A stretch of 64,000 nt of DNA from Cristatella mucedo (lineage: Eukaryota > Bryozoa > Phylactolaemata > Cristatellidae): contig WPIO01000041.1 in the NCBI GenBank assembly GCA_009760855.2, positions 621,001-685,000 on the forward strand, given 5' to 3'. A model generated the notes under the pieces. It did not search any database. It saw only the letters and a list, made by a program, of their open reading frames with translations, and was not told the DNA's origin. This document shows positions 10,605 to 58,034 of this stretch, one piece after another. Both the position numbers and the translations under genes were made by a program. How positions within the stretch are numbered: the stretch's first letter is position 1; each line of letters starts with the position of its first letter.

Positions 10605-11330
10605 AATAATAACAATAGTAATTATAAGACACTTGTAGAAAATCTTTCTATGCACTTTATATATGCTATAAGCAAAGCGTGATAAAATTATAAGTGGTAG
10701 CGTGCACAGCGTCAACAAGCATGACACGGTTAGAGCCGAGGTGGTTCGGTCTAGAGGTTAAGGTGCTCGCCCCGACCAAGGTCTGACCGAGGTCGTGGGC
10801 TCGAGCCCCGAGGCATATATGAAGTGCCTGAATAGTGATTAAGTTCTCTTGGGGCGCTATATAAATGAATTATATTTTTAGTATGCACAGTGTTGGCACA
10901 CAGAAGCGGGCAAAGGATGAATCACAAGGACTCTCGACAAGCTCTGTTAAATGGGTGCGATTTTTGCTTCTATTGAAATGTCGTCATGTCTGAGGATGTC
11001 GTGACGTCAGTCGGGAGTGATTTCCAGGCTGTGGAAGCGTACCAACTAAGGCATGGTCTCCGAAGGATTTGAGGTTCGTACTGAGGTATAGCTGACCGAT
11101 TTGAGCATCAAAAGCAGGCAGCACTGTGCCTGGTCTGGAAGGGAATTAGCTCTGGTAGGAAGGCTGGAGACCAGAAGAATGAAGGGACCTAAAATTGAGT
11201 GACACAACCTTGAAGTTGATGCACTGCTAGACTGGAAGAAAGTGCAGGTCGGCGAAACTGGTGTGATGTGGTGCTGCCAAGTTTTGTAACAACTGTAAGC
11301 GGCTGATTGCGCATGCTAGACTGACATCTG
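10605..11330 (-). mobile_element. L2-type LINE 3' part, interrupted by a SINE
   Basis: Minus-strand LINE tail and 3' UTR (GTGGTAGCGTGCACAGCGTC) are found at 10605-10733, and the LINE continues at 10880-11330 (TGCACAGTGTTGGCACAC, then the CGTGACGTCAGTCGGGAG block and further coding remains). A + strand SINE sits between the two halves. Confidence 0.75.
10734..10879 (+). mobile_element. tRNA-derived SINE, copy 1
   Basis: Head contains TGGTTCGGTCTAGAGGTTAA, which resembles a polymerase III A box, and GTGGGCTCGAGCCCC, a degenerate B box about 45 bases later. The body GAAGTGCCTGAATAGTGATT, AAGTTCTCTTGGGGCGCTAT and a T-rich end resemble the local L2 LINE tail. Inserted within an oppositely oriented LINE. 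Confidence 0.82.
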
Positions 11331-11470
11331 GCATCTGTATTTATATCGCACATACACCGGCGTGTATATTTGTACTTGTGCATTGTATGCGAGTGCACCT
11401 GTTTTTGTATGTGCATGCGTGCGTCCCCCGGCGATGTCGTCGTAAAGCATCTACTGCCTGTCGGATGTGG

Positions 11471-11517
11471 CCGTGCAGCAGCAGCAGCGCGCAACTGCTG
11501 CTGCTGCTGCTGCACGG
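11471..11517. repeat. Perfect 18-bp inverted repeat made of CAG/CTG units
   Basis: 11471-11488 (ccgtgcagcagcagcagc) is perfectly complementary to 11500-11517, with an 11-base loop. It lies about 90 bases upstream of the GPATCH4 acceptor, in the presumed intron, and would form a hairpin in DNA or RNA. Confidence 0.9.
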
Positions 11518-11607
11518 CATCACTGGCGGCTTTCGCTGCTGGCGCGCACGCTCAGCGCTGGATTCGTCAAGTCCGTGCTCGCTTTTACACTGGCGACGCT
11601 TTCACAG

Positions 11608-11858
11608 GAAAAGGGCTGGGCAAAGACGAGAATGGCATCACTGACGCCATTAAATCGAGCCTGAAGCAGGACACGGCTGGCCTCGGGCACGACTACGGGA
11701 AGGAGTTCACCGACAGCTGGTGGAACCGAGTGTTTGACAAGGCCGCTTCGAATCTCGTCGTAGAATCGTCAGACTCTGGTGTTCACGTGATGTCGAAAGG
11801 AACCGATAATCCCACTCGCCCCAAGAACAAGGCGTCGTCTTACGGCAATTTCGTCAAG
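11608..11858 (+). CDS. GPATCH4: GPATCH4 exon: C-terminal half of the G-patch and conserved WW region
   Basis: The acceptor is the pyrimidine-rich gctttcacag ending at 11607, and the exon is entered in phase 1 so that a preceding G completes the Gly of GKGLGK. The donor is AAG|gtgcgt after the Lys of NFVK, phase 0. Continuing through the donor, the frame stops at 11897. The open frame upstream of 11608 is Cys/Ala repeat-derived and does not look like the family N-terminus, which is why I start the exon at the acceptor rather than at the ATG at 11370. Confidence 0.85.
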
Positions 11859-14800
11859 GTGCGTGCCCCCCCCTCCCTCTCTCAACCACCCCCTCCTTAA
11901 TGCTTTGCAGTAGGCACAGCTCACAGCTGTACCTAGCTAGCTCACAAAGGTGAGCCCGAGCCACTGGAGAGAGAAAAAGGGTCGGTAGCGCTGTTGTTAT
12001 GATAAAGAGCTCTCTTCGAATTCTGTTTACTCGGGCTTTTCTTCGTCGCTTGTGGCAGTCGCGATGGCCAGGGTGATGCAGCACCCTTGGACCGACCGTG
12101 AGTTGCCAGCCGAAATCGAAGTCATGTCCCCCTCCTTCCCCCCACTGCTGTCCTCCTCTCCCCCCCCCTACTGAGCTCTCATGGAAAACTCAAGTTGCCT
12201 ATTGCAGAGCTCCCTCGGTTGTTTGCTCGCTTTCGAGTTGTTCGCTTTTCTCTGACGTCAAAGCTGCAGAGGCTCCAGAGGCAGCTGAGCTTTCGAGCGC
12301 TCACCGAAGTAGCTTCCCGCTGTGCTTCGGAGCCACGCCCATGTCACACCACCCCTCCCACCGTGCGGCCCGGTGCTGCTCTACTTGCACTACACGGTCG
12401 GGACCGATCGCTCGTCTGGCTGCCGGGTCGTATCGTATCCCGTAGGACCCTAGGCACACCTGTCCTTGGCGCTCGGGCGAGTGTCCAATCGGATGGCGAT
12501 GCCTAAGTCGATGCAGGCTAGTTTCGTCGACTTTGCACAGAGTAGTGAGTTTCCCTACGAAGCTAGGACTCTGCCACTCCCAGGAGCCTGGAGGTGGAGG
12601 AGGAGGAAGGAGGTTGTTTTTCTATGCTCCTTCCTCCTCCTCCCCCGGCCCCGCCCCTCCTCCTACCCCGGCCCCGCCCCTCCTCCTACCCCGCCCCCGG
12701 CCCTCCTCCTACCCCCCCCCCCGCCCCCGGCCCTCCTCCTACCCCGCCCCCGGCCCTCCTCCTACCCCGCCCCCGCCCCCGGCAGCTAGCTGTAGAGGCT
12801 GCCGGGGGTGGGGCAAGCTGCTGCTGGCGTGCTCATTTGAGCTCCGTGGGCGTGGCAGCGTGGATGCATCTATCGAGGGCTCGGCGCTCCGAATCTCCCG
12901 GTGATCGGAGCAGAGCTGCTGCTGACGGCGCTTTCAGCACCCGCTTTCAGCCGCCTCTGCAACCTTGCGCTCGTTGTTAGGGTGCAGTTCTCGATGGCAT
13001 AACCGGCGTTGAAACACCGACAGTGGTTGCCACGGCAGCTGTAGCCACCGATGTGTCGCCCAGAACCAAGGAGCCCGGCACGGCTCGCAGGTAGGCCTCC
13101 TATACGGAACAGGCTCTAATACCCTGCTGCTGCTGCCGCTGCTGCTGCTGGCTCCTCGTGAACTCTGCTGTCCTGTAAGCTGCAGCTGCAAGGAGCTGCT
13201 GCTCCTAGAGCAGGCTTCTCCTGTTTCTGTCTGCCTCGTGCTCGTGTCCTCAAAAAATGTGAATACTTTTCCACATTGTTTCTTGTTTGCATCTTGCACT
13301 CCCTTGCATTAGTAGCTATCTCTTGAACTGACAGCATTTCAATGGACGCTATCAATGCCACACGTCTTTTGCTCTGTCCTTTGTGAGTCTCCATGATGTA
13401 TATATGCATGCTTGTATTGTATTGTATGCTGACACTGTATGTATTGTCACTAATCAATTGACACGTTATCACAGTGTAAGTGGCCGGAAAGAGATTTTGT
13501 TCTCATAAGGACGTTATGCAAATGTTGTTTTTTTTACCTCTTTATCCCTTTCACCCCCTGACTTAATGGCATTTGAAAAAAGCTAAAAAGTTATTTATCA
13601 CAGCATATGTTGGGTCCATGTGATGACTCGTCCTTTGTGTGCTTATGCCTGCTAAGCCGAGCTGGTTTGGTCCAGCGGTGAAGGTGTTCGCCCCGACCAA
13701 GGTCAGGCTGAGTTCGTGGGCTCGAGCCCCCGAGGCATATGCCAAGCGCCTGAATAGAGATTGAGTTCTCTTCTGGTGCTATGCAAATGAATTTCATTTA
13801 TTTAATTATTTATTCGCATGCTGACCCTTTGCATGTCATCTCTAATCATGCTATGCTTGTTGACATTGAGCATGCTACCTTTAGCCATTCGATCATGCTT
13901 CCTTTACAGCATATGTATAGTGCCAGGAGGAGATTAAGTTCTGTGAGGATTATATACCAATGTATTGTTATTGTTATCAATAATATTATCATTATAGCTC
14001 TTTACATTCATAGTTTCACCGACGAAGAACTGATGAGCATCTGTGGTGGTCGAACTGCACACAAGTAAGTGTTGGCCGTTTTTACAGTATGGAAGTGGCC
14101 GGTCGACCTGTTTGTTTATTCATTATATTAGTTAAGTTTATAATATGTATATTTTAGGTTATTTATAGTATAGAGTATATATATATATAATAGTTCATTA
14201 CATTATTCAAGTTATGCTCAAAACATGCCGGTCGGTGTGTTTAATTGCATTTTTATTTGGTGCTGGCATTCGAGTTTGCACATGAATATGTAAGCGACTT
14301 CTAGTGCCTATTGGTTGTATTCCACTGATTCGTGCGAAAAACAATGGGGGGGGGGCTGAAGTGCCGACCATTTGGCAAGAACGCTTCGATGGAGGTTACT
14401 CGGAATGCGCACAGAAATCGTTTTTCAAAGCTCAATGCCATCGTGTCATGTCATCATGTCAATCTCAATGTCGACGGTGCGATAGCTGAGAGCTGCCGTC
14501 GGCTTGCTCTATGCTGGCAAGAGTGGCAGCAGCAACGAATGTGAGGCTGCGTTCGAGTTGGGACGCCGGCGGGCTCACTGCTCCCGCTTCATAAACCTCC
14601 GACGCTCAGGCCGGCCCGTGAGCCGGCTCCGGCTGAGTGTCCGGCCAGGCAGGGAGAGAGGGGGCGAGGTGCAACCAGCAGCGCGTGCCAGGGCTGCTGC
14701 TGCTGCTGCGCGATCGCTTCTGTCGCTTGCCGCCCGCTCTGCTGCTGCTGCTGCCACCTCCGCCGCGGTCTCCTTCTGCTCCTCCAGGGCGGCGCGGCAC

Positions 14801-26399: not shown

Positions 26400-27890
26400 G
26401 ATCATTATAATGATAATAATGCACTTGAAAAAGCGCCCTCAGAGAACTTAATCTCTTTCTAGGCGCTTTACATTTGCTGCAAAGGGAAATGCAATTGAAT
26501 GGTGAGTAAAATCATGCTTGACAAACAAACAAAATTAATAACATGGTTAGGGGTGACATGCACAGGGTCAGCATGCAAATGTGGTTAGTGGCAGCATGCA
26601 CAGTGTCAGCACGCATAAGCACATCAAGGACGAATCACAGGGACCCACTAAATGCAGTCATAAATAGGTGTGCTTTTAAATTCTTTTAAAATGTGGTCAG
26701 GTCAGGGGATTTTCTGACGCAGGTTGGGAGAAAGTTCCGGGCTTTGGGAGCATGCGAACTAAATGCACGGTCTCCAAAGGATTTAAGGTTTGTATGAGGT
26801 ATTGGTAGACTGTTGGATTCCAAAATACGGGTGGTACGATGCTTGGCCTGATGGGGTAGTATATCTGAAAGATAGGCTGGAGCCATAGAATGAAGGGACC
26901 TAACAGTGAGTGACAAAACTTTGAAGTCAATCCGTGGCTTGACTGGTAGCCAGTGCAGGTCGGCGAGAAGTGGAGTAATCTAGCAACTGCGACGCTCACG
27001 ACAGACAAGCCTAGCTGCAGAGTTTTGCACCAGCTGCAAACGCCTGATGGAACATTCCGGTAGGCCAGCGAGCAGTGAGTTGCAGAAGTCGAGACGGAAT
27101 GTCACGAATGCGTGGACTAATTTGGACGTAGTATCCTTATTTAAACAAGCCCGAATTTTAGCAATGTTGTGAAGCTGAAAATAGGCAGATTTGACTGTGG
27201 AGCTGATATGGTCGTCTAACGAGAGGTCGCTTTGGAATATGAAACCTAGATTTCGAGCTGATTCAACTGTAGCTATGCTGGCAGAGCCGATTTTGAGCGT
27301 CAGCCTTTCCAATTTGTGAATCAGACTGGGTTTTCCGATAACTAGTAAGTTCGTTTTATCGTCATTTAGTTTTAGAAAATTTGCTGCCATCCATATGCGG
27401 ATGTTATCAATACATGCAGCTAGTGAGTTGAGAGAATTCGAGGTGCTCGAAGGCTGGGAGGGATCAAAGTAAAGGTACAACTGAGTGTCATCTGCATAGA
27501 AGTGAAAGCCTAGGTTGTGCTTGGCAATCACATCAGCAAGAGGGAGAGTATAAACAGTTAAAAGAACCGGACCTAGCACGGAGCCCTGAGGTACGCCATA
27601 TTTCAGATGTACCTCAGATGATCTGTGTCCATTCATGTCAATACTCTTGAGTCTCCCACTGAGATAGGACCTGAACCACTGCAGAGCAGTGTTAGTGATG
27701 CCCAGGCGAGATGAGAGGCGCTCTAGAAGAACTTTGTGATCGATGGTATCAAAAGCTGCCGAAAGATCGAGCTAAACAAGCAGAGACACTCTACCCATGT
27801 CTGCATTCCTAAGTAGGTCGTTGTATACCCTAAGCAATACTGACTCTGTGGAGTGATTAGCTCTAAAGCCAGACTGGAACTTACTAGCAA
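26400..27890 (-). mobile_element. L2-type LINE copy A, 5'-truncated, with intact RT active site
   Basis: Minus-strand frame 26980-27636 gives 218 codons of the reverse transcriptase including GVPQGSVLGPVLLTVYTLPL and YADDTQLYLYF, the catalytic YADD box. Earlier RT blocks lie in shifted frames at 27640-27890, and the C-terminal part and 3' UTR continue to the tail ATAATAATGCACTTGAAAAA at 26405. The endonuclease and ORF1 regions are absent, so it is a dead 5'-truncated copy. Confidence 0.9.
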
Positions 27891-39981: not shown

Positions 39982-39989
39982 TATAAATA
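39982..39989 (+). promoter_or_regulatory. TATA box of the prohormone-4 gene
   Basis: A perfect TATAAATA lies in a GC-rich context 288 bases upstream of the start codon of the neuropeptide precursor. Transcription would be expected to begin about 25-32 bases downstream, near 40011-40020. The position, strand and the CpG-rich surroundings (about 38.8-40.7 kb) agree with a regulated, tissue-specific gene; the start site itself is inferred. Confidence 0.6.
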
Positions 39990-40276
39990 CCCGCCCACCC
40001 CGACCGCCGGCTAGAGCATTTGCGGAGGCACGCCAGCGGCGAGTCTCGGATCCGCTCAGCCCCTACGGTATGTGCGGCCGCCAGCTAGCTAGCTAGCTCG
40101 CGCGCGCGCTGTCGAGCGCGTGCGGCGCCGGCGCGCACCGGTACGCCTCCGCTCGGCTCACCTACCCTCTCGCGGCCAAAACCGAGCCGCGAGCCTCCTC
40201 CGTTGCCTCCGAGCTTCCGGCTTCCGGCTTTCGGCGATGGCCGCACGAGGCGAAAGCGTCACCGCTGGCGTTGCAG

Positions 40277-40490
40277 ATGTGCGACACTCCCGGCGGCTAC
40301 TCTGGCAGGCCCGTCGCCATCTTCAGTCTGATGCTGCTGACGCTGCAGCTGCTACTGACCGCTGCTCTTGCTGCTCGACTGCCTCTGCCGTCTGCTCACG
40401 GCGCGAGCGGCGGCGGCGGCGGCTACCGCTACGCCGCACTGAAGCGTTTGCTCAGCGAGCTGTCAGCTCAAAAGCGCATGCTGCCGCCAG
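40277..40490 (+). CDS. Prohormone-4 exon 1: signal peptide and Lys-Arg flanked peptides
   Basis: Start ATG at 40277 is the first in-frame ATG; the reading frame upstream relies on a non-ATG codon. The exon encodes 71 residues plus one base and ends CCAG|gtaaga. A hydrophobic stretch at residues 14-33 with small residues at 30-33 gives a probable cleavage before RLPLP. A Gly run (GGGGG, residues 45-49) precedes YRYAAL-KR. Confidence 0.82.
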
Positions 40491-41968
40491 GTAAGATGCC
40501 CCCAACCAGCTGCCGCCGCTCCGCGGATACTTCAGCCGTGGCTGCTGCGGGGGTCAGGCGTCCGGGGGGGGCGGGTTGTCGAGGCTCGCGTGGGAGCGTC
40601 GCAGCGCCTGCAGCTGCCGCCGCCTGCGGGCGGCGATGCGCGACGCCTTCTGAGCAACAGTTTGTACTGGCGCCGAATGTTTAAGTTGGGTAGAGCTGAA
40701 CTTTTGTATTCTGAATTCCGGGCATTGCGTCAGTGAATTAGAAATGGCCGGCGGCTTTTTAATCGCAGCTCGATCGTTGGAGCTTCCTTCTTTGCTCTTC
40801 GGGCTGATATTTGAAGCCTGCGGCGAGTAAATGCCGATTACGCTGCGCTCTCAAAATAGCTTCGGCCGTCGCTGGCTTGTCACGCGACTTCGCATGCTAA
40901 CGAGTCGTGCGACGTCGCTCGCGGCGCGCCGTCGCCAGTGAGAGTCTGCCGATCCGTCGCTTAAATCTTTAACGCGTTTTTAATGATTAACGTGGTCAAA
41001 GCCCATCGCTACTATTGTCAGTACTGCCAGTTCCGCCTATTCACCCGCGCACGTCTTGCACACGTAGCCTGGCGCTCGCCGTCGCGTTTGATAATGTAAC
41101 CATTGAGGCGAAATCGTGACCGAGTGATTCTACGAGTAAAGGAGCTGCAGAGAGTGACAGGATGAGAGCGAGCTAGAGAAAGAGGTAAAAAGAGAGAGAG
41201 AGAGAGAGAGAGGAGAGATAAACTAATCAAGCTAGTAATGAATGCAGGGCTGAAATTTGATGCACAGTGCAAATATAGAGAAACTGCGGCCGCGACTGCG
41301 GAGGGTCGTAAAGTAAAGAGCAGCATTGAGTAGAGAGACGTGGCATTGAGCAAGGGCAAGGCCGAATCGCGGACTGGACACAGTATCGAGTAGTGTACAC
41401 AATGAGCGACAACGGCAGCTGCGAAAGCTGCGAAACGCCACCAGCGTGATTTGCATGATTTGGGAGTTCGTGTCTGTCGTTGCCCGATGCTGCTAACAGA
41501 TTAAATCTGGCGAAGGAGACTTCGCAAGGAGACGCCGAATGCATTTACTCGTCTCGTATCTTTCACACTGTCTCTCGTTTCTCTCTTACTCACTCTGCAC
41601 TCCTTCCATCGTCTCTCTCCTCTCCCAATAAATCTCTTTGTTCTCATACTCGTGCGCACGCTCATTCTCACACGCAAGCACACACGCATGCTAGCACTCA
41701 CACACCTACGCTCCCACACCTACGCTCCTGCACTTACGCACCCACACTTACACACCCACACCTATGCACACACACCTACGCACACACACCTATGCACCCA
41801 CAACCACACACTCATGCAGCCATCCGCCCATAACCACAGTCTCTCTTACCCAGCTCACACATTAGCATTCACATGCCTGACACAGTCTGACGCCCGAGAA
41901 CTCACGCACATGGGCACAGCCATACACACACGCCACGTTCATCCGTCTCCTTGCAAGCTAATTGAATG

Positions 41969-42000
<32 letters not shown>

Positions 42001-44513
42001 CACACACGCACACACACACACATGCACTAACACACACACACACACACACGTAACCGAGTAAAACACATTAAAAAAACATGTAGTATGAGTGTACGTCCAC
42101 CATGTCTCTCTCTCTCTCTCGTCTTCACGAGCCGACGACGGCTTGACGCCGCGCTATAAAGGCTGAAAGAGCGCGAGCGGTTGTGGCAATTCAAGCACTG
42201 ACTTCATGCGACTGACGCGGAAACTCGGCCGCGTAGCTAAAGCTCGCGAAACGGCTCTCGCGACCGCCGCTGATCCGATCTCCGCTTGGCCCCCTACGGC
42301 GACGAGGCACCTGAGATATAATTCACCCTCGCTGCTTTGCGGCGGTCACGTGGCTGCCTCCCACGTCACACCGCTGAATACGGGCTCTGCAGTAGCGCTG
42401 ACGGACATTCGTCCTCACCACAGGCCGCCCGCGCCACCTCTTGCGCCGCCACCGCCGCCGCATCGCTGCCGGGGCACCGAGCGACTCGCGCCCTCGAAGC
42501 GCACCGACAAGCCTGGGCGTGCTGACGTCAGAGCAGCATCTGCCACCAGTGTCTGCAGTTCAGCTCTGATCAGTGTCTGATCGTTCTGGCCGGTGCAGCC
42601 ACTCGCGATTCCTCCGCCGCCGCCGCTCTCACCTCGGCAGCCGCGGCGGCCGCCGCCGCCGCCTCTGTGTTGACCGTCGGCAGCTGGCGAACGCTTTACA
42701 GAATTCAACAATTGCCAGCAAGAGGAGCCGTTTCCGTGCAAGTCAGTCAAGGAGTGCATATCGCTCAAGCTGCTCTGCGACGGCAAGAGTGACTGCAGCG
42801 ACGCCTGGGACGAGGACGACTCCGTGTGCACGGCCTGTGAGCGCCGGCAAACGCGCGCGTTCGCGGCGCGCGCGTTCGCCGGCGCTCTGCTCTCTGCTCG
42901 CCCGGCACCGCCTGAGCGCTGAAGCGCTGGGCGCGCTGCTGGTCCTAACCAAAGGCTGGCTAGAGGCGGCGGCGCTGCGGCGGGACTCTTGCGCGCGCCA
43001 TTCAAGCTCGCAGATGCATCGGCCTCATTTTTATAGAGTTTTACCCGTCAGGCTTCGTATTATAGCACCCGCTCTTTTAGCTCAAGTCGTTTGGCTGCTT
43101 ATTTAGCCCATCTCAAGCAGCCTTGGAGATCGCGACTTCAGTTAGTACATTTACACCAATCTAAAAGAAATTTGAGCCGATAGCAGATATTCTGATAGAG
43201 CTTCACTCAGATATTCTGTTTAGCTCGGCTCTCTACAGAGCAACGTTCTTATGCTGACCCATGAGGCCAAGGCCACGGCCTTTGGCTCCTTCGTACCCCG
43301 CTGAACGGCTCCACCTGTTTCAGCCTCATCGTGCCCTCTGTTCCTGTATGGACAACAAATTAACAATTCCACTCCTCCGATTAACGACCCTTGGCAGCAG
43401 AAGATTTCGCTCTGCATATAGACTAGACTGTGGTACTCGCTTCAGCAATTCTTTCGCAACGACAACTACTCTGCTTCTGCCCACTGTGGCACATTCTTTC
43501 CAGCCGTCTTAAATTGCTACTTCCACGCTACTCACAACCTCAGCTGCTCTCCTAACTCTGCTGCTCTCCTGACTCTGCTTGACCTTGATCCTCGAGCTGT
43601 GCTTCTTTCTCTTGGTTGCGTGAGACGAACAAATTTAGCCACCAAATCGGCAAAAATGGCCAAAATGGCACACAAATTGGCCACCGAATGCATACTGAAA
43701 GCCGCTTCAGCTGCGAGGAGTGCACTGCACCAACCTCTCTTGCGTACTGTGCACGTAGCCTTCGCGGCCTTGTGGAGCTACAGGCGGAGATGCATTGCAA
43801 TTAATACGTTAACGTACGTCGCGGCGATCGACAATAGCGATCTCTACCTACCCACTCATTCTGTCCCTTTCGCGGCCACATTCTTTCGCCATTATCTCCC
43901 TCTGGCTACTAACTTCCTCCTCTTCATTCTCGCTCTCCCTCTTCGTGGCAGTCACGTGGCGGCACTAGGAGTTTCACGCGGGAGGCAAGACACGCGAGGA
44001 GCACTGAAAAATTGAAGTGCATAATCGTAAGTCAGTCAGCCGCCATGACAAATCATAAATCATCGAGCGAATATTCGATGAGTATTTAGCGCGTGGAATT
44101 GAGATCTGATTTTCAGGTAGGGCCCCGTTTCGTATTTTGAGACTGATCGTGGTTATTTCGCTCCTCCCGATATGCGACACACAAGTGGCATCGTCGGCTC
44201 TCCCCGATTCCAATATCCGGCGTATGCCTAGGTCCCTGTCTTTCCCACCTGTACTGTGGGGGGAAATGGGTCATCTGCACTGACACATGTAGGTGAGCCG
44301 GCTCTAGCGGAATACTGCAACGATCGATAGCGTATTTCTTAGCTTAATATTGCAAGTCCATGTTTCCAACGTAGAACGCACTCGTCGACAGCGACAGAGG
44401 GCAGCGTTTCCATAGCACCAATCAAAGCGTATCGCTAAATAGGTGCTTGCACTTGAGATAGTAATAACAATAATAACAATAATGCACTTGATAAAGAGCA
44501 CCCTCAGAGAACT

Positions 44514-44564
<51 letters not shown>

Positions 44565-47500
44565 GGCGCTTTACGTTTGCTGCAAACGGAACGTCGGAAA
44601 CCAGTGGAGTGTGTCATTTTAATGTCATACTAATGCATCGCGATCAGTCGACCACGAGTCCTCGCCCGATTGACTGGGAGCCGAGACCCGAGCCGAGACC
44701 TCTCTCGAACAAGTACTCAAGTCCGCATTGAATCTAGTTCAGCAATATTGCCAAAGACTCGTAATAAAGCAAAAAAGTAAAAGTGAACGTCAAGGCTGAT
44801 TCTGAGGCCTCTTTAATTAGCCGGAAGAAGGGCCATGGCGGCTCTCACTCCAACTCATTGTGAACAATTAAAGTCTGAGCACCTCAGCCTCAGGTCGAGA
44901 CCAGGGGGCAAAAAGGTGTGGCTGATTTAACTGTCCGACTACAGTGGCAAAAGATTCTTTACAACTTCACCACCACTCGACAGATAATAATAATAATATA
45001 ATAATAATAATATTGCACTTGATAAAGCGCCCTCAGAGAACTTAATCTCTTTCTAGGCGCTTTACATTTGCTATAGGCTGGCTCACTGCACGAATAATTA
45101 GTTAATCATTAATTAGTTTATTAATCATTACAGTTAGCAGGAAACTCGTCATCAATATCAATGCTAACATCTTCCTACTCTCGTGCAGCATTGTCAATGC
45201 CTGACTCGTTATTTTCACTGTATGCAGTGACGGACACTGACTTGCAGAGTTTAAGACGTAGGTCTATTTCTTTCAAAAGAATTGAAAAAAGTGCGACTTG
45301 TGCTCGTACAAATACGGTAACAACAAGTTATAGAAAAGCCACAAGCGATCGATTCACCCTGACCCGGATACCATTTAAGGAGCAGCCGTGGCCGTGGGCT
45401 GAAGGCTTGGGCCAAACTTGCAGGCGATCCGTTCGCTCTTTACGAGCGTTCCAGGTGGCGCTCTAATTCGGCGTGGGCGAGCATTGACATGCTCCCTCCT
45501 AGTGGAGCTAGTAATGAGCGCTTCTGACTGCTTTCTGCTGCCTGGCTCTGCTCTCCTGTCATTCACGATAGATTACGATATTTACGACACGATTACGATA
45601 GATTACGATACGATAGAAACGCCAAAGTTTTGGTTGTGCAGTCTCTTCGGAGGATGGAGCGACTTGCAGACGCTCGCAGCAGCGAAGGTGAAGCAGCGAA
45701 GGTGAAGGTGAAGCAGCGAAGGTGAAGGTGAAGCGTGAAAGTGAAGGTGCAGTTCGCAGTGCGCTCTGCGAAGCAGCGAAGGTGAAGGTGAAAAACTCGG
45801 TGAAGCCGACAGGACAGGAGCCGATCGAGCTGGGCGACAGAGCGTGCGTCGAAACCGCAATTCGTGAGAGTTCTCAGAGCGCCGACTGCGAGGGACGACG
45901 CGCCGCGCACCCTCCAGCGGGCGGGCAGGCGCACGCGTCCTCGTCCTCGCGGATAAACGAGGATCGAATCGGAGCCCGACGCCTCGCCCCGCCCCCTCCC
46001 CCGGTGACGCAGGCGCGCGCGAGCGAGCAGGCACGGTGCGCCCGCTCTGCGGGCGAGCAGTGCGGGCAGTGCGGGCCTGTCTTTTCGTCCATCCGCCCGT
46101 CGGGCCTCCGTCGGAGCAAAAGTGCGGCTAATGAGGGGTGGCGGCCATTTTGGAGTGCTCTCCTCCGGCGACGAGTCGCGGTTGTACTAATCACTCCTCC
46201 GATTGCTTGCTCGCTCGCGCACAGTGGCTGGAGGGCAAGGCCTACGAGCGACTCACTCTGATTGTATCCCCAGCAGACGACCGATCATTTCCTCGACCGC
46301 TTCCTTCCTCTGCTAGTCATTGCGTTGGATCCTTGTCTAACGTTAGGGACTGACCACTGCTACGGCTTGCTGGAAATCTAGCTGGCTCCCCGGTTCTTTC
46401 AAGACTGAAACGCTGCGCGATTCCGTTTTGGACGGCCTGACTAAAAAAGCCTTTCAGTGTCTGCAGCTGGTGACGAATGTGGCCGTATGGTTGGTCAACA
46501 AAACGCAGAAGTTCAGCCAAGGCTGCTAGAGCGACCATAGATTCATGAGCGATCAACGGTTACTACAGCTCAAAGTTCTTACTCAGATCTAGAAGGCACG
46601 GCTCTATGGCACCTAGCTTAACGCTACACTAGTTTAAGCGTCCTCGTACTCTCAGGTCCCCAATGGACTATCAACTAGTCGCTCCGTTCCTTCAAAACCA
46701 AACTTAGCTGATTTAACAGCCTCATTTTTATACCGGCAGAAATACCTTTACTACCTATCACCACCTTATCGGCTTTCACACTTGCAGTGGATAATAAAAA
46801 TTTACATAACCAGTTCAGATATCAAAGCTACCTTGCACTAGAAGACCGCGTCAGCTCCAACGGTAAAGTCAAGTCTGCTAACTTTCAGCCGCACAGCATT
46901 GCTAAAATTCCGACTTTTGTAGACTTTTGGATACCGCATCGACATTAGCCCATGCATTTGTAGCATCCCGTCTTTGCTTCTGTAACTCACTACTTGCAGG
47001 TCTATAAGCTTGTGCAATCAATCGGACGCTGACAGCTGGTGCTAAACTCTGCAGCTGGGCATGCCTGTGGCGAGCGCCGCGGTTGCAACGTAGGAAATAA
47101 ATAAAAATGAGCTGATTTAGCAGCCTAGTTCGTATAGCGGCCCGAAGAGCCTCGTCGGCTGTCACCAACGCTCGCAGTTGTCAATCAAGACTGGCCCATT
47201 GCAGCCATTCGCTCTTGACGACGACCTCTTACGGTCGTCGTCAAGAGCGAATGGCCCCGTACCCCGCTGGGCAATCGCAGCGCAGTAAAGATCGCAGGCG
47301 ACGGAGGCTTTTGTTCTCTGTAGATCATAGACTTCCAAGCTCACTTCCACAATACTTACAGAGCGCCGCGTTCTCTCTCCTAGCGCTCGCTGCCTCGCGG
47401 CGAATCTCCCGACGCGCCCGCGGCCTGGCCGTCGTGCGATTACCGCCGGCGGCGCCTACCCAACTCTTGCTTCCGCTTCCGGTCGCCGCCGCCGCAGCCT

Positions 47501-47857
47501 GCTCTCGACGCGCGGCGGTCGGCCGCTCTCTTTATCAGACCAGCGCCTGCCCGTGACGGACTTCGAGGAGCTGCTGGCGAGCGAAGCCCGGTGGATGGTG
47601 CCGGCGTTCTTCGCCGGCGTCGTCAGCAGCGCCGACGACCTGAGGAGGCTCGCCCACTTGCTCGTCGTCAGCCGCACGGCCGACGAGTTCGTCGAGCGAG
47701 CGCAGACCGCCGGCGACAGCGCCAAGAACCTGGTCGGCGCGCTGCTCGCCGTGCGCAACTCCGAGCCCGAGGCTCTGCTGCAGCTCGGCATGCCGGCCGC
47801 GTCGTGGGACAACGTCAAGTACGCCTTCGGCAGTCTGCTCGCCTCCGGCTTCCTGTA

Positions 47858-47858
<1 letters not shown>
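40277..47858 (+). CDS. Prohormone-4 type neuropeptide precursor with LDL-receptor class A domain (three exons, 222 aa)
   Basis: Exons 40277-40490, 42702-42836 and 47539-47858 join in frame (phases 1 and 1; 669 nt). Residues 1-34 are a signal peptide (core LMLLTLQLLLTAALAA). Two Lys-Arg sites at residues 56-57 and 67-68 bound YRYAAL and LLSELSAQ, possible processed peptides. Residues 76-114 form one LDLa module with six Cys (76, 84, 90, 97, 103, 114) and the calcium motif CDGKSDCSDAWDE. Residues 117-222 are predicted helical and end in YAFGSLLASGFL. Known: insect prohormone-4 has signal peptide, short basic-flanked peptide, LDLa and a helical tail ending in a similar hydrophobic stretch; it is secreted from neurons. 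Odd: the arthropod peptide signature (IDLSRFYGHFN) is absent. A plain LDLa secreted protein is the alternative, but order, size and the CTA-x-x-R-x-P-V junction favour prohormone-4. Confidence 0.83.
41186..41220. repeat. Short (GA)n tract in prohormone-4 intron 1
   Basis: About 35 bases of GA dinucleotides within a purine-rich stretch. Confidence 0.85.
41650..42050. repeat. CA-rich simple repeat region in prohormone-4 intron 1
   Basis: CACACAC/ CTACGC/ CCTATGCACACA-type degenerate repeats up to about 41830, and a purer (CA)n at 41968-42050. Thr/His-rich frames over it are shadows. Confidence 0.9.
42155..42161 (+). promoter_or_regulatory. Possible second TATA element in prohormone-4 intron 1
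   Basis: TATAAAG sits in a GC-rich patch (42120-43010) inside intron 1, 541 bases before the LDLa exon. An ATG at 42206 follows at a plausible distance. It may mark an alternative promoter or be chance; nothing else supports it. Confidence 0.25.
42702..42836 (+). CDS. Prohormone-4 exon 2: LDL-receptor class A domain
   Basis: The acceptor acgctttacag ends at 42701 and the donor gtgagc starts at 42837. The exon is a symmetric phase 1-1 exon of 135 nt holding exactly one LDLa domain, FNNCQQ to DDSVCTA, with all six Cys and the acidic calcium-binding cluster. Single-module phase 1-1 exons are typical of shuffled extracellular domains. Confidence 0.88.
43232..43805 (+). mobile_element. L2-type LINE subfamily B, 3' part
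   Basis: Broken + strand frames match the end of the RT in the 56.5-57.9 kb copy: VLMLTHEA, LAPSYPAERLHLFQPHRALC, DNKLTIPLLRLTTLGSRRF, and the distinctive 3' end with GCATACTGAAAGCCGC and GGCCTTGTGGAGCTAC. In prohormone-4 intron 2. Confidence 0.85.
43810..44450. other. Prohormone-4 intron 2 sequence without recognised feature
   Basis: This stretch lies between a LINE subfamily B fragment and a LINE tail within intron 2. I see no exon, tRNA-like box or long repeat in it. Confidence 0.4.
44455..44600 (-). mobile_element. L2-type LINE tail with an internal (CT)n expansion
   Basis: AATAACAATAATGCACTTGA and CACCCTCAGAGAACTCAATC lead into 48 bases of (CT)n (44516-44563), then CTAGGCGCTTTACGTTTGCT. 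In other copies the same place holds only TCTCTTTCTAG, so the microsatellite grew inside the tail. Confidence 0.9.
44980..45080 (-). mobile_element. L2-type LINE tail fragment
   Basis: AATAATAATATAATAATAAT, TTGCACTTGATAAAGCGCCC and TCTTTCTAGGCGCTTTACAT; a clean tail without coding part. Confidence 0.88.
45540..45800. repeat. Short tandem repeats: GATTACGATA-like and GAAGGTGAAG/CAGCGAAGGT-like units
   Basis: Two small repeat blocks lie in prohormone-4 intron 2. 45570-45618 repeats variants of ATTACGATA, and 45685-45795 repeats GTGAAGCAGCGAAG and GTGAAG units. The latter makes His/Phe-rich shadow frames on the minus strand. Confidence 0.65.
45800..46330. other. CpG-rich patch in prohormone-4 intron 2
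   Basis: GC- and CpG-rich sequence with a YY1-like GGCGGCCATTTTGG at about 46140. Open frames on both strands are compositional. It may be an internal regulatory element; no transcript start can be assigned. Confidence 0.35.
46790..47092 (+). mobile_element. L2-type LINE subfamily A fragment
   Basis: + strand remains of the KSAYFQLHNIAKI block (AAGTCTGCTAACTTTCAGCC, CATTGCTAAAATTCC) and the following CNSLLAGL block (TGTAACTCACTACTTGCAGG). In prohormone-4 intron 2, about 450 bases before exon 3. Confidence 0.7.
47539..47858 (+). CDS. Prohormone-4 exon 3: C-terminal helical domain and stop
   Basis: The acceptor ctctctttatcag ends at 47538 and gives the only phase-1 entry I found that joins exon 2 without a stop; the acceptor cttacag at 47361 is also phase 1 but would create TAG at the junction. 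The frame reads QRLPVTDFEELLASEARW, continues through Leu/Ala/Val-rich amphipathic stretches and ends SLLASGFL with a TAG at 47856-47858. It is GC-rich with G/C third positions, unlike the flanking LINE sequence. Confidence 0.82.
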
Positions 47859-47861
<3 letters not shown>

Positions 47862-47904
<43 letters not shown>

Positions 47905-47968
47905 ACGCGCAGCTGCTCCCCTCCCCTCCCCTCACCCAACCCGCGCCGCCGCCGCCGCCGCCGCCGCG
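47862..47968. repeat. (GGC)n and (GCC)n runs directly after the prohormone-4 stop
   Basis: About fourteen GGC units start four bases after the stop codon, and about nine GCC units follow at 47943. In the mRNA the two runs are complementary and could pair as a 3' UTR hairpin. No polyadenylation signal was seen by eye in the following kilobase. Confidence 0.75.
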
Positions 47969-47999
47969 GAATCGCAGAGCGGCGGCGCCGGGCGCTCGC

Positions 48000-48870
48000 G
48001 CCGCTCTGCGACGTCGACCGACGGTGCCGTACGTCGCTCGCCGTTCGCCGCGCGACCTCGCTCGGCTCGCGGTCGGCCGGACCGGGCCGCCGGGCCGCAT
48101 TCGCCGGTCGCTAGTCGCCGGGCCCACGCGGCAGCGGCCAGCGACGATTCGACAGCAGCGCGAGGCGAAGTGAACGAACGCGCCGCGCTGCCGCCTGCTC
48201 TGCGGCAGCGCGCGTCCCGGCGCGGCAGCGCGCGCGTCCTGGCGCGGATCGCGTCTCCGGAGTGGGCGAGCTGAGCGTTGGAGCGGCCTCGCCGCCGCGA
48301 CCTCTCCTTTCGCGGGCGGCGCTCGGCATCCGTCTGTCTCGGAAGAGATGCTTGTGCGCTTCTGAGTAGCAATAATTAGGAAGCATCGCAATCCGCTAAC
48401 ACTCGCTCTCGGCTGCTGCGAGATTGGCAGTTTTCGTCTATTTACGTTGGCGCTTCGGCGAAGAACGCTGAGCGCCAGGCAGCGCTGGCGGCGGCGGCGA
48501 CACGCAGTCCGCAAGGTCCGGACGACGCCGCGCCTCCCTCGTTCGTTAGCCTCGCGAACAACTCGACTCGACCGGCCGCAGCCTCCACCGTCGCGATGCG
48601 GCGGCTGCGGCCGGTCGCGAGCGAGCGAGGCTCGCTCGCGCGGCGGAAAGCCCGTGCTCGTTTGCACTCCGTGCGCGCGCCCGACGGAGTCGGTGGCGGT
48701 GTGAACTGGGTCGGTCGGCTGACTTGGCTATCGCTCGACAAGCCGTCGCTAGGATGTGCTTGCTGGCCGCGCCGGCGGCGCATTCGGCTTTCTCGCCGCC
48801 GCTGTGCGTAGCGATACTCTCCGTCGTGATCGAGGCGCAAGGCGAAGTGACAATACTGCAAGCAACCAGA
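48000..48870. other. CpG-rich 3' flank of the prohormone-4 gene
   Basis: Very GC-rich sequence continues about 1 kb past the stop codon and ends at the (AT)n block at 48874. The 403-codon open frame on the minus strand across 47456-48667 overlaps the real exon 3 antisense, is Arg/Ala-rich and has no recognisable domain. Confidence 0.4.
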
Positions 48871-48873
48871 CGT

Positions 48874-49127
<254 letters not shown>

Positions 49128-49129
<2 letters not shown>

Positions 49130-49222
49130 GCGGGCGATGGCGCCTTATGTGTGCTGCAAGGCGCGAGCTCACGACCTATGTCGTCTAGGTCGAACACCTG
49201 ACCCCTGACCCCTGAGCCTAAT
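49128..49222 (-). mobile_element. Possible diverged tRNA-like SINE
   Basis: GGCGCGAGCTCACGACCTAT and GGTCGAACACCTGACCCCTG followed by CCTAATCCAGTG resemble, in the same order, the minus-strand head of the SINE family at 23391 (B-box, loop, A-box). The tail is missing or replaced by (AT)n. Confidence 0.4.
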
Positions 49223-49229
49223 CCAGTGA

Positions 49230-50240
49230 AGGCAAAGCGCGATAGCATCGAACGAATGGCGGCAAACTGGGCCAAGCTGCTTACGACAGCAGCAGGCCAG
49301 TGGCGCTGAGAGAAGGCGTATTGCTCCGTCTTCTTACTACCTTACTACTTCATCTTCGTCTACTACATCTTCGCTGAAGGCAGTGCTGGTAGCCCAGCGA
49401 GAGCCTCCAAAATGAAGGCGTACAGCCTTCTTCAAGGCGAGAGTTCAATGTCAGAGCCTTCAACCCGAGCTCGGCATTCGATTGATCTCCCTAGCCCTCC
49501 TCCCTCTACACGCCCCCGTAAGTGTGCAGCCATTACTTAAGCCTGACCGGCAAGGAAAGCTTCAGCACATCCCCCTCCTCCCAATCAGGAGTACTCTGCC
49601 TCCGGGCCTCACCGACGCTTGCACGCCGAGGGAGTCACTCGGCGAAAGAATGATGTCACCCATCAGATCAATGGGGCCTCGGACCGCTAATGCCGATCGA
49701 GCGAACATATTAGGTTAGTCGCAGGAAATATTGCGCGCTATTTATAGACTTAGTCGTAGTCTCGGCGCCGCGGTATCGAACTACTCACGTCAGCCGCGAG
49801 TTTGCGCTGTGTGAACTCGTGCGATTGCGGAAATATCCGCCTCGTCCCGGAAACCGACCTGCCGGTCGGCCCCTGCCCCTCCCCCGGAAGTCATCTCGAT
49901 GACTTCTGCGGCGATACCGATATTCGCTCCACAGGGCTCAGCTGTGCCGACGTAGATGCAGCCATCTAATCGCCCGGCGAGGTACCAGCGAGAGGAGATA
50001 TTTTTAGAACTAATGTACGTAAGCGACACAAAAATCTCACAACCTGAGCTTGTCATCACTGAAATACGATGCAATATAATATAGTATGCTGATATGATAA
50101 AATAATATATTGCACATAATATACATATATATATATATATATTTGTATGTATAATGACATTGTTATATATGTATATTTGTGTATATTATATATATATAAT
50201 TTATAATATATGATATAATGCAGTACATGATATAGTATAC
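49230..50240. other. Interval without recognised gene
   Basis: No retroelement or exon recognised; AT-rich microsatellite-like pieces at 50085-50215. Confidence 0.4.
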
Positions 50241-50329
50241 TGATGGAGCTAGCCCCTCGAAGCCCGAAAAGCAAGTCGCAGGTCGCAGGTCGCAGGCCTC
50301 GTTCGATGCGCGCGGGTATTTCGACTTCA

Positions 50330-50489
50330 GCAGAGCGCGGCAGCAATAGAGAGTGTCCAGTGGCTCCACAAGTTCAAAGTAAAATCGAGCATTTTGAAGC
50401 CCAGAAAGCAAATCGGCTGCCTAGCATTTCAGAAGTCCAGTTGGATTATGGAACGTTTGGTTCCTTATTGACTGAAATTCAGGAACCGG
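50330..50489 (+). CDS. Unidentified candidate internal exon
   Basis: A pyrimidine-rich acceptor (gtatttcgacttcag, ending 50329) is followed by an open frame entered in phase 1 that reads PVAPQVQSKIEHFEAQKANR, LPSISEVQLDYGTFGSLLTE and IQEP, then a weak donor gtagta at 50490 (phase 0). The composition is protein-like, with no resemblance to the local LINEs. I do not know the family and see no partner exon. Confidence 0.3.
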
Positions 50490-50624
50490 TAGTACTCTCT
50501 TGCACTTTTATAATCTAGCTGGTGTAAGATGGCAACGTTTTAGCGTCGCGTGTGCATCGTAGTGGCTCAGCAACCGCTATGCGGTGCATTTTTTGATTGC
50601 AGTTCCGGCTTGTCCTTGCCAAGT

Positions 50625-53091: not shown

Positions 53092-54535
53092 AAAAATAAT
53101 AATTATAATGCACTTGTTAAAGCGCCCTCAGAGAACTTAATGTCTCTCTAAGCGCTTTACATTTGCTGCAAAGTGAAATGCAATTGAATGGTAGGTAAAA
53201 TCATGCTTGAAAAACGAGCAAAATGAATGATATGGTTAGGGGTGACATGCACAGGGTCAGCATGAAAATTTGGTTACTGGCAGCATGCACAGTGTCAGCA
53301 TGCATAAGCACATCAAGGACTAATCACAGGGACCCACTAAATGCTGTCCTAAATAGGTGGTTTTTAAGTTCCTTTTAAATGTGGTCAGGTCGGGGGGATG
53401 TTCTGACGCCGGTCGGAAGGAAGTCCCAGGCTTTGGGAGCATACGAACTAAATGCACGGTCTCCAAAGGATTTGCGGTTTGTACGAGGTATTGGTAGACT
53501 GTTGGATTCCGAAAAGTGGGTGGTACGATGCTTGGCCTGGTGGGGTAGTATATCTGAGAGATAGGCTGGAGCCATAGAATGAAGGGACCTAAAAGTGAGC
53601 GACAAAACCTTGAAGTCAATCCGTTTCTTGACTGGTAGCCAGTGCAGGTCGGCGAGAAGTGGTGTGATGTGGCAACTGCGACGCTGACGACAGACAAGTC
53701 TAGCTGCAGAGTTTTGCACCAGCTGCAATCGCCTGATCGCTGACATGCTGGTAGGCCAGTAAGCAGTGAGTTGCAGAAGTCGAGACGGGATGTCACGAAT
53801 GCGTGGACTAATTTGGACGTGGTATCCTTATCTAAACAAGCCCGAATTTTAGCAATGTTATGAAGCTGAAAATAGGCAGATTTGACTGTGGAGCTGGTAT
53901 GGTCGTCTAACGAGAGGTCGCTTTGGAATATCAAACCTAGATTTCGAGCTGATTCAACAGGAGATATGCTGGCAGAGCCAATTTTGAGCGTCAGCCTTTC
54001 CAATTTGTGAATCACACTGGGTTTGCCCATAACTAGTAAGTTAGTTTTATCATCGTTTAGTTTAAGAAAATTTTCTGCCATCCATGTGTGGATGTCATCA
54101 ATGCATGCAGCAAGTGAGTTGAGAGAATTCGAGGTGCTCGAAGGCTGGGAGGGATCAAAGCAAAGGTACGACTGATTGTCATCCGCAAAGAAGTGAAAGC
54201 CTAGATTGTGCTTGGCAATCACATCAGCAAGAGGGAGAGTATAAACCGTGAAAAGAACCGGACCTGGCACTGAGCCCTGAGGTACTCCATATTTCAGAGG
54301 TACTTCAGATGATCTTTGTCCATTCACGTCAATACTCTGGAGTCTCCCACTGAGATAGGACCTGAACCACTGCAGAGCAGTGTTAGTGATGCCCAGGCGA
54401 GATGAGAGGTGCTCTAGAAGAACTTTGTGATCAAAGGTATCAAAAGCTGCCAAAAGATCGAGCAAAACAAACAGAGACACTCTACCCATGTCTGCATTCC
54501 TAAGTAGGTCGTTGTATACCCTAAGCAATGCTGAC
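53092..54535 (-). mobile_element. L2-type LINE copy A with a 402-codon open frame
   Basis: Minus-strand frame 53320-54528 is open for 402 codons: LRVYNDLLRNADMG, FDTFDHKVLLEHLSSRLGI, GVPQGSVPGPVLFTVYTLPL, FFADDNQSYLCF (the YADD box read as FADD) and a frameshifted C-terminal part. A complete tail CACTTGTTAAAGCGCCCTCA lies at 53110. 5'-truncated at the same LRVYNDLLRN block as other copies; endonuclease absent. Confidence 0.92.
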
Positions 54536-54536
54536 T

Positions 54537-55262
54537 CATATGCACAGGGTTAGCATGCAAATGCGGTTATTGGCAGCATGCATAGTGTCAGCGCGCATAA
54601 GCACATGAAGGATGAATCACAGGGACCCACTAAACGCTATCCTAACTAGGTGTGTTTTCAAGTTCATTTTAAAATTGGTCAAGTCAGGGGATGTTCTGAC
54701 GCAAGTCGGGAGGAAGTTCCAGGCTTTGGGAGCATACGAATTAAATGCACGGTCTTCAAAGGATTTGAGGTTTGTACGAGGTATTTGTAGACTGTTGGAT
54801 TCCGAAGAGCGGGTGGTACGATACTTGGCCTGTTGGGGGAGTAGACCTAAGAGATAGGCTGGAGCCAAAGAATGAAGTGACCTAAAAGTCAGCGACAAGA
54901 CCTTGAAGTCGATTCGTTGCTTGACTGGTAGCCACTGCAGGTTGGCGAGAAGTGGTGTGATATTACAATGCGACGCTCACGACAGAAAGCTGAGCTGGAG
55001 AGTTTTGCACCAGCTGCAATCGCCTGATTGCACATGCCGGTAGGCCAGTGAGCAATGAGTTGCAGAAGTCGAGACGGGATGTCACGCATGGACCAACTTG
55101 GACGTGGTATTCTTATCTAAACAAGCCCGAATTTTTGTATTTTTGTGCAGCTGAAATAGGCAGAGTTGACTGTGGAGCTGATGTGGTCGTCTAAAGAGAT
55201 GTCACTTTGGAACATCGTTTACTTTTAGAAAATTTGCTGCCATCCATGTGCGGATGTCATGA
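54537..55262 (-). mobile_element. L2-type LINE copy A, tandem to its neighbour
   Basis: Begins directly at the 5' end of the preceding copy with 3' UTR sequence (ATGCACAGGGTTAGCATGCA) but without the tail, then C-terminal coding blocks, stopping at the ATTTGCTGCCATCCATGTGC region. Confidence 0.85.
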
Positions 55263-56514: not shown

Positions 56515-57870
56515 TGTATCTCCGTCAGTAACTCCACAAAGTCATAAAGACCATGTGGGTGTTACGCAGGAGAGTTTTGTATAGCGCACTCACAGCCAAA
56601 GCGGCTTTCGGTACGCATTCGGTAGCCAACAGACTTCGTCTCACGCAACAAAGAGAAAGTGGGAAGCATAGCAGAGTCAGGAGAGCAGTTGAGGTAGTGA
56701 GTAGCATAGAAGTAGCAGTTCAGGACCGCTGAAAAAGATGTGCCATAGTCGGCAGTTGGAGAGTTGATGTCGTTGCGTAAGAATTGTGGAAGCGAGTTCC
56801 ACAGTCTAGGACCTGCAGAGCTAAAGCTTCTGTCGCCAACTGTCTTTAAGCGGAGGAATGGGACAGCTAATTTATTGTCCACACAGGACCTGAGGGCGCG
56901 AACAGGCTGAAACTGATGCAGCAGTTCAGCTAGGTATGAAGGAGCCAAGCCGTGGCGGGCCTTGTGGGTCAGCGTAAGAACTTTGCTCTGTATCCTTTGC
57001 TCAACCTGCAACCATCCCAGCTCTTCCAGCAAAGGTGACACGTGCTCAAACCGCTGGGACTTGAAGACCAGCCCTGCAGCCATATTCATAGTCCGCTGTA
57101 GTGGCATAATAGCTTTCTTAGGTAGCCCAGCCAAAAGGGAATTACAATAATCAAGCCGAGACAGAACTAAAGAGCTAGTTAAATTTTTTACAAGCCACTG
57201 TGGGAGACAGCTCCTAATCTTGGATAGGGATCGGATGTGATGGCTAGCTGTAGAGGCAGTCTTCTGAATGAAGCTTTTTAATTTGAGGCAGCTGTCGAAC
57301 ACGACACCTAGATTACGAGCACGTGGTGAAGGTCGCACAATAGCATCACCTATTAGAACAGCAAAGCCTTTTAATCCTGCCACACGCTTAGGGTGTCCTA
57401 TGAGAAGCAGTTCAGTTTTATCGTCATTTAATTTCAGGAAGTTTTCCGACATCCAGGATCGAATATCGGCAAGGCAAGCATTCAGTTTCTCAGTTGCTGC
57501 AGCAGATTCCGACGGTTTAAATGACAAATACAACTGAGTATCGTCAGCATAGAAGTGATATCCTATTCCATGGGCCTTAATCACTTTTCCCAGAGGTTGC
57601 GTATAAATGGAGAACAGCAAGGGACCAAGTACAGACCCTTGAGGGATTCCACAGGTGACCCTTCTCATGTCTGAGACCTGACCCCCACACGACACGGATT
57701 GAACACGATCAGACAAGTAGGATTTAAACCACGCCAGTGCCTCGTCTGCCAGACCGATCGTTGTTCTCAGTCGTTCAAGCAGAACTTCGTGATCAATGGT
57801 GTCGAAGGCAGCGGACAGATCTAGCAGAGCTAAGGCAGTGACATTCCCGTCGTCGTATAATACTATCAAT
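56515..57870 (-). mobile_element. L2-type LINE subfamily B with a long open RT frame
   Basis: The minus-strand frame 56562-57998 (478 codons) covers DDGNVTALALLDLSAAFDTI, GIPQGSVLGPLLFSIYTQPL, YHFYADDTQLYLSF with an intact YADD, and a C-terminal region, in one unbroken frame. The first 43 codons (57871-57998) belong to flanking DNA, which marks the 5' truncation. The 3' end differs from subfamily A and no ATT-type tail is present. The absence of stops suggests it is the youngest LINE copy here. Confidence 0.92.
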
Positions 57871-58034
57871 AGTGGTACAACGTTTTTATAGGATCCTGAA
57901 AGAACTAAAAATAACTCAATCCACTCGAGATGTACCGAGAATGAAGCATAACAACTGGCCCAATTTCTGTGTGCATTATGATGTAAATGTGATCTCATCC
58001 GGATTATTCAAATTTCCCGAGGAACGCATAATTG

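Follow-up and report, generated by a model that had tools for sequence, protein, structure and literature searches.

The question raised by this locus is whether a gene pieced together from three separated open frames encodes a precursor of the prohormone-4 type, and which part of such a precursor would carry its activity. The locus lies in a 64-kb stretch of DNA that was analysed as a whole and is called the window here. An earlier note on this DNA had proposed three pieces with GT/AG borders and a reading frame of 222 residues, and re-reading the joined sequence confirmed all of this. The three exons give 669 nt, that is 222 codons and a stop codon, in one frame on the forward strand, and both joins are in phase 1. 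The features of the locus are collected in Table 1.

Table 1. Features of the precursor gene and its surroundings; positions are those of the window, residues those of the joined protein
Feature	Position	Strand	Remarks
TATAAA box candidate	39982..39987	+	295 nt upstream of the start codon; proposed from its position only
Coding exon 1 (214 nt)	40277..40490	+	start codon, leader and both Lys-Arg sites; basis: frame, donor CAG/GTAAGA
Putative signal peptide, residues 1-32, hydrophobic stretch VAIFSLMLLTLQLLLTAALA	40277..40372	+	judged by eye
First Lys-Arg site, residues 56-57	40442..40447	+	
Candidate short peptide LLSELSAQ, residues 58-65	40448..40471	+	lacks the IDLSRF/DFSRL letters; compared with oyster
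Second Lys-Arg site, residues 66-67	40472..40477	+	
Intron 1, GT..AG, phase 1	40491..42701	+	
Coding exon 2 (135 nt), LDLa module with six cysteines	42702..42836	+	basis: frame, Pfam, genome search
Intron 2, GT..AG, phase 1	42837..47538	+	
Coding exon 3 (320 nt), cysteine-free C-terminal domain to ...ASGFL, then stop	47539..47858	+	
(CGG)15 tract	47860..47904	+	pure; begins one base after the stop codon of the precursor

The splice signals differ in strength along the gene. The donor of exon 1 (GTAAGA) is the top GT site of 40300-40800, matching eight of nine consensus letters against five for the next best, and the donor of exon 2 (GTGAGC) is middling with six of nine. The acceptors read ...TTTACAG and ...TTTATCAG; in the 18 nt preceding the AG, pyrimidines make up 50% at exon 2, which is weak, and 78% at exon 3. 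The join 42836/47539 is independently supported, because the residues on either side of it, SVCTA/YQRLPV, align without a gap with CTAATRPPV of the PDB entry 8v14 and with CTAAKRPPV of honeybee prohormone-4, for which a provisional sequence served in this and all other comparisons. The join 40490/42702 falls into a non-conserved stretch and rests on the splice signals and the frame. As an alternative start, an upstream ATG at 40237 was rejected: it lies out of the precursor frame, and its joined frame hits a stop in exon 2. A 5' untranslated intron ending at 40276 (CAG/ATG) would remove this ATG. Rfam gave no match anywhere in the 64-kb window at the gathering threshold.

The predicted protein opens with a 12-residue start followed by a long hydrophobic stretch, as judged by eye. 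It then passes, in order, through a leader-proximal stretch ending in GYRYAAL, a Lys-Arg pair, LLSELSAQ, a second Lys-Arg pair, the LDLa module and the tail. Both Lys-Arg sites that had been claimed are present and flank LLSELSAQ, so that, as in prohormone-4, a dibasic-bounded short peptide precedes the LDLa module. The claim of one LDLa domain was borne out as well: PF00057 scores 25.0 bits, barely above the Pfam cut-off of 24.1, with six cysteines at residues 76, 84, 90, 97, 103 and 114, and Pfam found no other family on the precursor up to E 10. In LDLa modules four acidic residues bind calcium, as structures of the LDL receptor show, and acidic residues stand at these positions here (D98, D102, D108 and E109). 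The tail comprises about 105 residues, and no cysteine follows residue 114.

The genome contains at least 146 LDLa matches, so the module alone says little about kinship and the tail is the real test. If the tail were unrelated, the gene would encode a secreted protein from a different family, with one LDLa module and a tail rich in alanine and leucine, and its likeness to prohormone-4 would end with the LDLa module. Smith-Waterman alignment of the precursor tail with the provisional honeybee tail gave a score of 62 against 26 ± 4.7 for 2000 shuffles (z 7.7); none of the shuffles reached this score and the reversed tail stayed at chance. The exon 3 frame was then ranked among the 1269 stop-to-stop frames of at least 30 aa in the window. 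It came first in three comparisons: in blastp against the provisional honeybee tail, where its E of 0.017, a weak value, was followed by 2.5 for the next frame; in phmmer without filters, at E 0.079 against 0.37 for the next; and with a two-sequence tail profile, likewise unfiltered, at E 0.1 against 8.9. Run with its default filters, the same profile returned nothing among these 1269 frames. Compared with the provisional honeybee protein, the tail is 24% identical over 72 residues and falls short by about 8 residues; both end in GFL. A cysteine-free C-terminal domain homologous to that of prohormone-4 is thus indicated, with weak E-values and a provisional sequence as the comparison. It is the combination of best frame, right place, right phase and the same C-terminal GFL that speaks for it, and the likeness of the tail to prohormone-4 is weak but specific.

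To see how singular the gene is, the whole genome (572 Mb in 688 contigs, with the window at C354:621001-685000) was searched. With the precursor as query, its own three exons were followed by places at E 0.0015 or worse. With the provisional honeybee prohormone-4 as query, exon 2 of the precursor gene came first (E 1.6e-8, others from 2.9e-6), and exon 3 did not appear among the matches in the whole genome. From both searches 27 loci were kept and translated on the matching strand. Four of them are the precursor gene itself; the other 23, which include some places counted twice, are exons with an LDLa module but no CTA..R.PV junction. One LDLa exon (L027, C687:8618162-8618308) continues as ...MCMFYKQVPSS, with a faint likeness to the family junction; the tail is absent from the 5 kb downstream of it, where the best hit has E 0.43 and lies on the opposite strand. 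Like L049 (C652:964353-964493) and L054 (C99:563444-563563), this exon has no second LDLa module in the flanks that were read. A second prohormone-4 copy was detected neither with the precursor nor with the provisional honeybee query nor with a codon pattern, the exact pattern for DLSRFYGH having 0 matches in the 572 Mb. A strongly diverged second copy may lie elsewhere in the genome.

These searches also bear on the reading as a protein of another family. It draws on the sheer abundance of LDLa modules, on the weakness of the profile match, on a comparison with the tail of 8v14 that stays at chance, and on haemoglobin linkers, which match the LDLa part of the precursor too. It is countered by the first rank of exon 3 and the shuffles, with a match that reaches the common GFL end, by the CTA..R.PV junction, which extends beyond the LDLa module in both relatives, and by the fact that the gene is the best place in its genome for a prohormone-4 query. 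We consider this reading unlikely. Judging from the sequence, the gene is probably a divergent lophotrochozoan member of a prohormone-4/NRAP-1 family and the only one detected in its own genome; its product is likely to be an expressed and secreted member of that family.

The second half of this family name comes from the structural database. Among the 54 PDB sequences listed up to E 1, the best was 8v14, annotated as 'NMDA receptor auxiliary protein', which matches residues 75-130 at E 7.8e-11 and which we take to be C. elegans NRAP-1; the remaining listed entries match around the LDLa module. Extracellular haemoglobin linker chains, for example, share the module (best E 3.6e-5), but their match is centred on it (the longest spans residues 64-149) and no shared tail was demonstrated. 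The provisional honeybee prohormone-4 matches 8v14 at E 1.1e-39 over 150 query residues, covering LDLa module and tail, and the two tails compared with each other reach z 39.6. On these grounds prohormone-4 and NRAP-1 look like one family by sequence, and the product of the gene may accordingly modulate glutamate receptors. The link of the gene to NRAP-1, the best solved relative, runs via the LDLa module and prohormone-4, since its tail matched directly to that of 8v14 is non-significant (z 0.65, with 487 of 2000 shuffles reaching the score) and searches of the 1269 window frames with the 8v14 tail did not list exon 3. In a search of mostly open-access papers we found none linking NRAP-1 with a prohormone; such a link may have been published elsewhere.

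What separates the precursor from known members of the family is its short peptide. Prohormone-4 of insects, crustaceans and molluscs has the same order of a leader, one or more Lys-Arg-bounded peptides, a six-cysteine LDLa module and a cysteine-free tail ending in GFL, whereas the core peptide, IDLSRF in arthropods or the DFSRL type in oyster, is absent from all 222 residues here and the sequence diverges far more than among arthropod members. As a measure of conservation, one report gives 89% identity between a partial lobster prohormone-4 of 143 aa and that of an aphid (PMC4018349). We therefore file the gene as a divergent member of an LDLa-tail family and not as an IDLSRF prohormone-4. 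The assignment to the prohormone-4 type in the earlier note holds for architecture, LDLa module and tail likeness, but a canonical IDLSRF identity finds no support, given the missing core and a divergence well beyond that among arthropods.

Prohormone-4 has been described in honeybee, crustaceans, oyster and cone snails. For the oyster protein, the reported order is a leader, two short peptides, a six-cysteine LDLa module and a cysteine-free tail, with a second short peptide said to be found in lophotrochozoans only (PMC8398477). This layout is the same as that of the precursor here, while the letters of both short peptides differ. For cone snails, a second, prohormone-4-like class has been described that carries an LDL-receptor module and either lacks the canonical peptide or has another in its place (PMC5450551, PMC6891753). 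The stretch before its LDLa module is longer than here (PMC6891753), and the likeness is one of description only.

That the short peptide is missing its core matters for a classical view of the precursor, in which the Lys-Arg-bounded peptide is the sole messenger and the LDLa module with the tail aids folding or sorting. The two Lys-Arg sites fit this view, as do peptides seen by mass spectrometry in other animals: both short peptides of prohormone-4 were reportedly identified in oyster (PMC8398477) and an IDLSRF-like peptide in ant brains (PMC10194420). It is weakened by what prohormone-4 and NRAP-1 have in common, namely the LDLa module and the tail, and by the short peptide being the part replaced here and hence not the most conserved one. 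We find it rather doubtful that signalling depends on the short peptide alone, and give the LDLa-tail piece somewhat less than an even chance of being, in place of a short peptide, the main active product.

The missing core could alternatively be a sign of decay. A non-functional copy might show such a loss together with a divergent tail, a run of glycines encoded by GGC repeats, the (CGG)15 tract after the stop codon and, in 47859-50500, the lack of any AATAAA or ATTAAA signal. Yet the reading frame is uninterrupted in each exon, both introns retain their splice dinucleotides, and the LDLa module still has its six cysteines. In addition, third codon positions are strongly biased toward G+C, with 65, 48 and 87% at positions 1, 2 and 3 against 48% for the whole window. 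A decaying copy is in our judgement very improbable. The glycine run lies in exon 1, and its length and that of the (CGG)15 tract possibly vary.

If the gene is a functional member of the prohormone-4/NRAP-1 family, its product could work as follows. The precursor would enter the secretory pathway of neurons, and cleavage at the two Lys-Arg sites would free two short peptides, LLSELSAQ and the one next to the leader. What follows, the LDLa module with the C-terminal domain, would leave as a single folded unit; its kinship to NRAP-1 suggests that this unit might act extracellularly on a glutamate-receptor complex. The gene is of an ordinary kind with one informative twist. It suggests a bolder proposal, to which we give a minor chance: that prohormone-4 represents NRAP-1 in protostomes and is secreted as an LDLa-tail protein that modulates NMDA-type glutamate receptors, not primarily the precursor of a peptide hormone, with the modulator part kept here and the 'hormone' peptide replaced. 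For the receptor of prohormone-4, one table gives 'nd' (PMC8397052), and the portions of the literature examined name none. If prohormone-4 does belong with NRAP-1, the NMDA receptor would become a concrete target for experiments, and there would be a reason for the LDLa-tail part to persist where the short peptide is lost.

The order and size of the precursor had been likened to prohormone-4 of insects, and this framing had to be given up. The genome carries two Lox5-type homeobox exons (L059, C665:11746971-11747174, and L060, C221:3113969-3114172), whose translated DNA runs into ...KLTGPNQ; the homeobox query itself contained KLTGPN, and the letters were also read in the exons' own translated DNA. 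The KLTGPN tail of Lox5 is a lophotrochozoan mark, and these exons therefore point to a lophotrochozoan genome and not to an insect one. Two further homeobox exons, Hox4/Dfd-like by eye, were seen (L061, C665:12041927-12042121, and L062, C221:3223651-3223839), so that Hox genes seem to be duplicated in this genome, with one of each type on two contigs.

Some further observations were made along the way. The mitochondrial contig (C688; L044, L045 and L058) is 21,008 bases long and contains blocks repeated 2,115 bases apart, with inverted copies elsewhere. Its COX1 has 11 in-frame TGA codons, TGA being read as Trp. COX2 and ND2 lie opposite in strand to the other genes read, and the gene order is not arthropod-looking, gene names other than COX1 having been assigned by eye in both cases. 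Within the window, a second gene on the forward strand at 11325-11897 encodes a partial G-patch domain (30.5 bits) and is GPATCH4-like by eye. On the reverse strand, reverse transcriptase fragments (RVT_1), of the non-LTR type by eye, were found at 26983-27771, 53323-54549 and 56565-58007.
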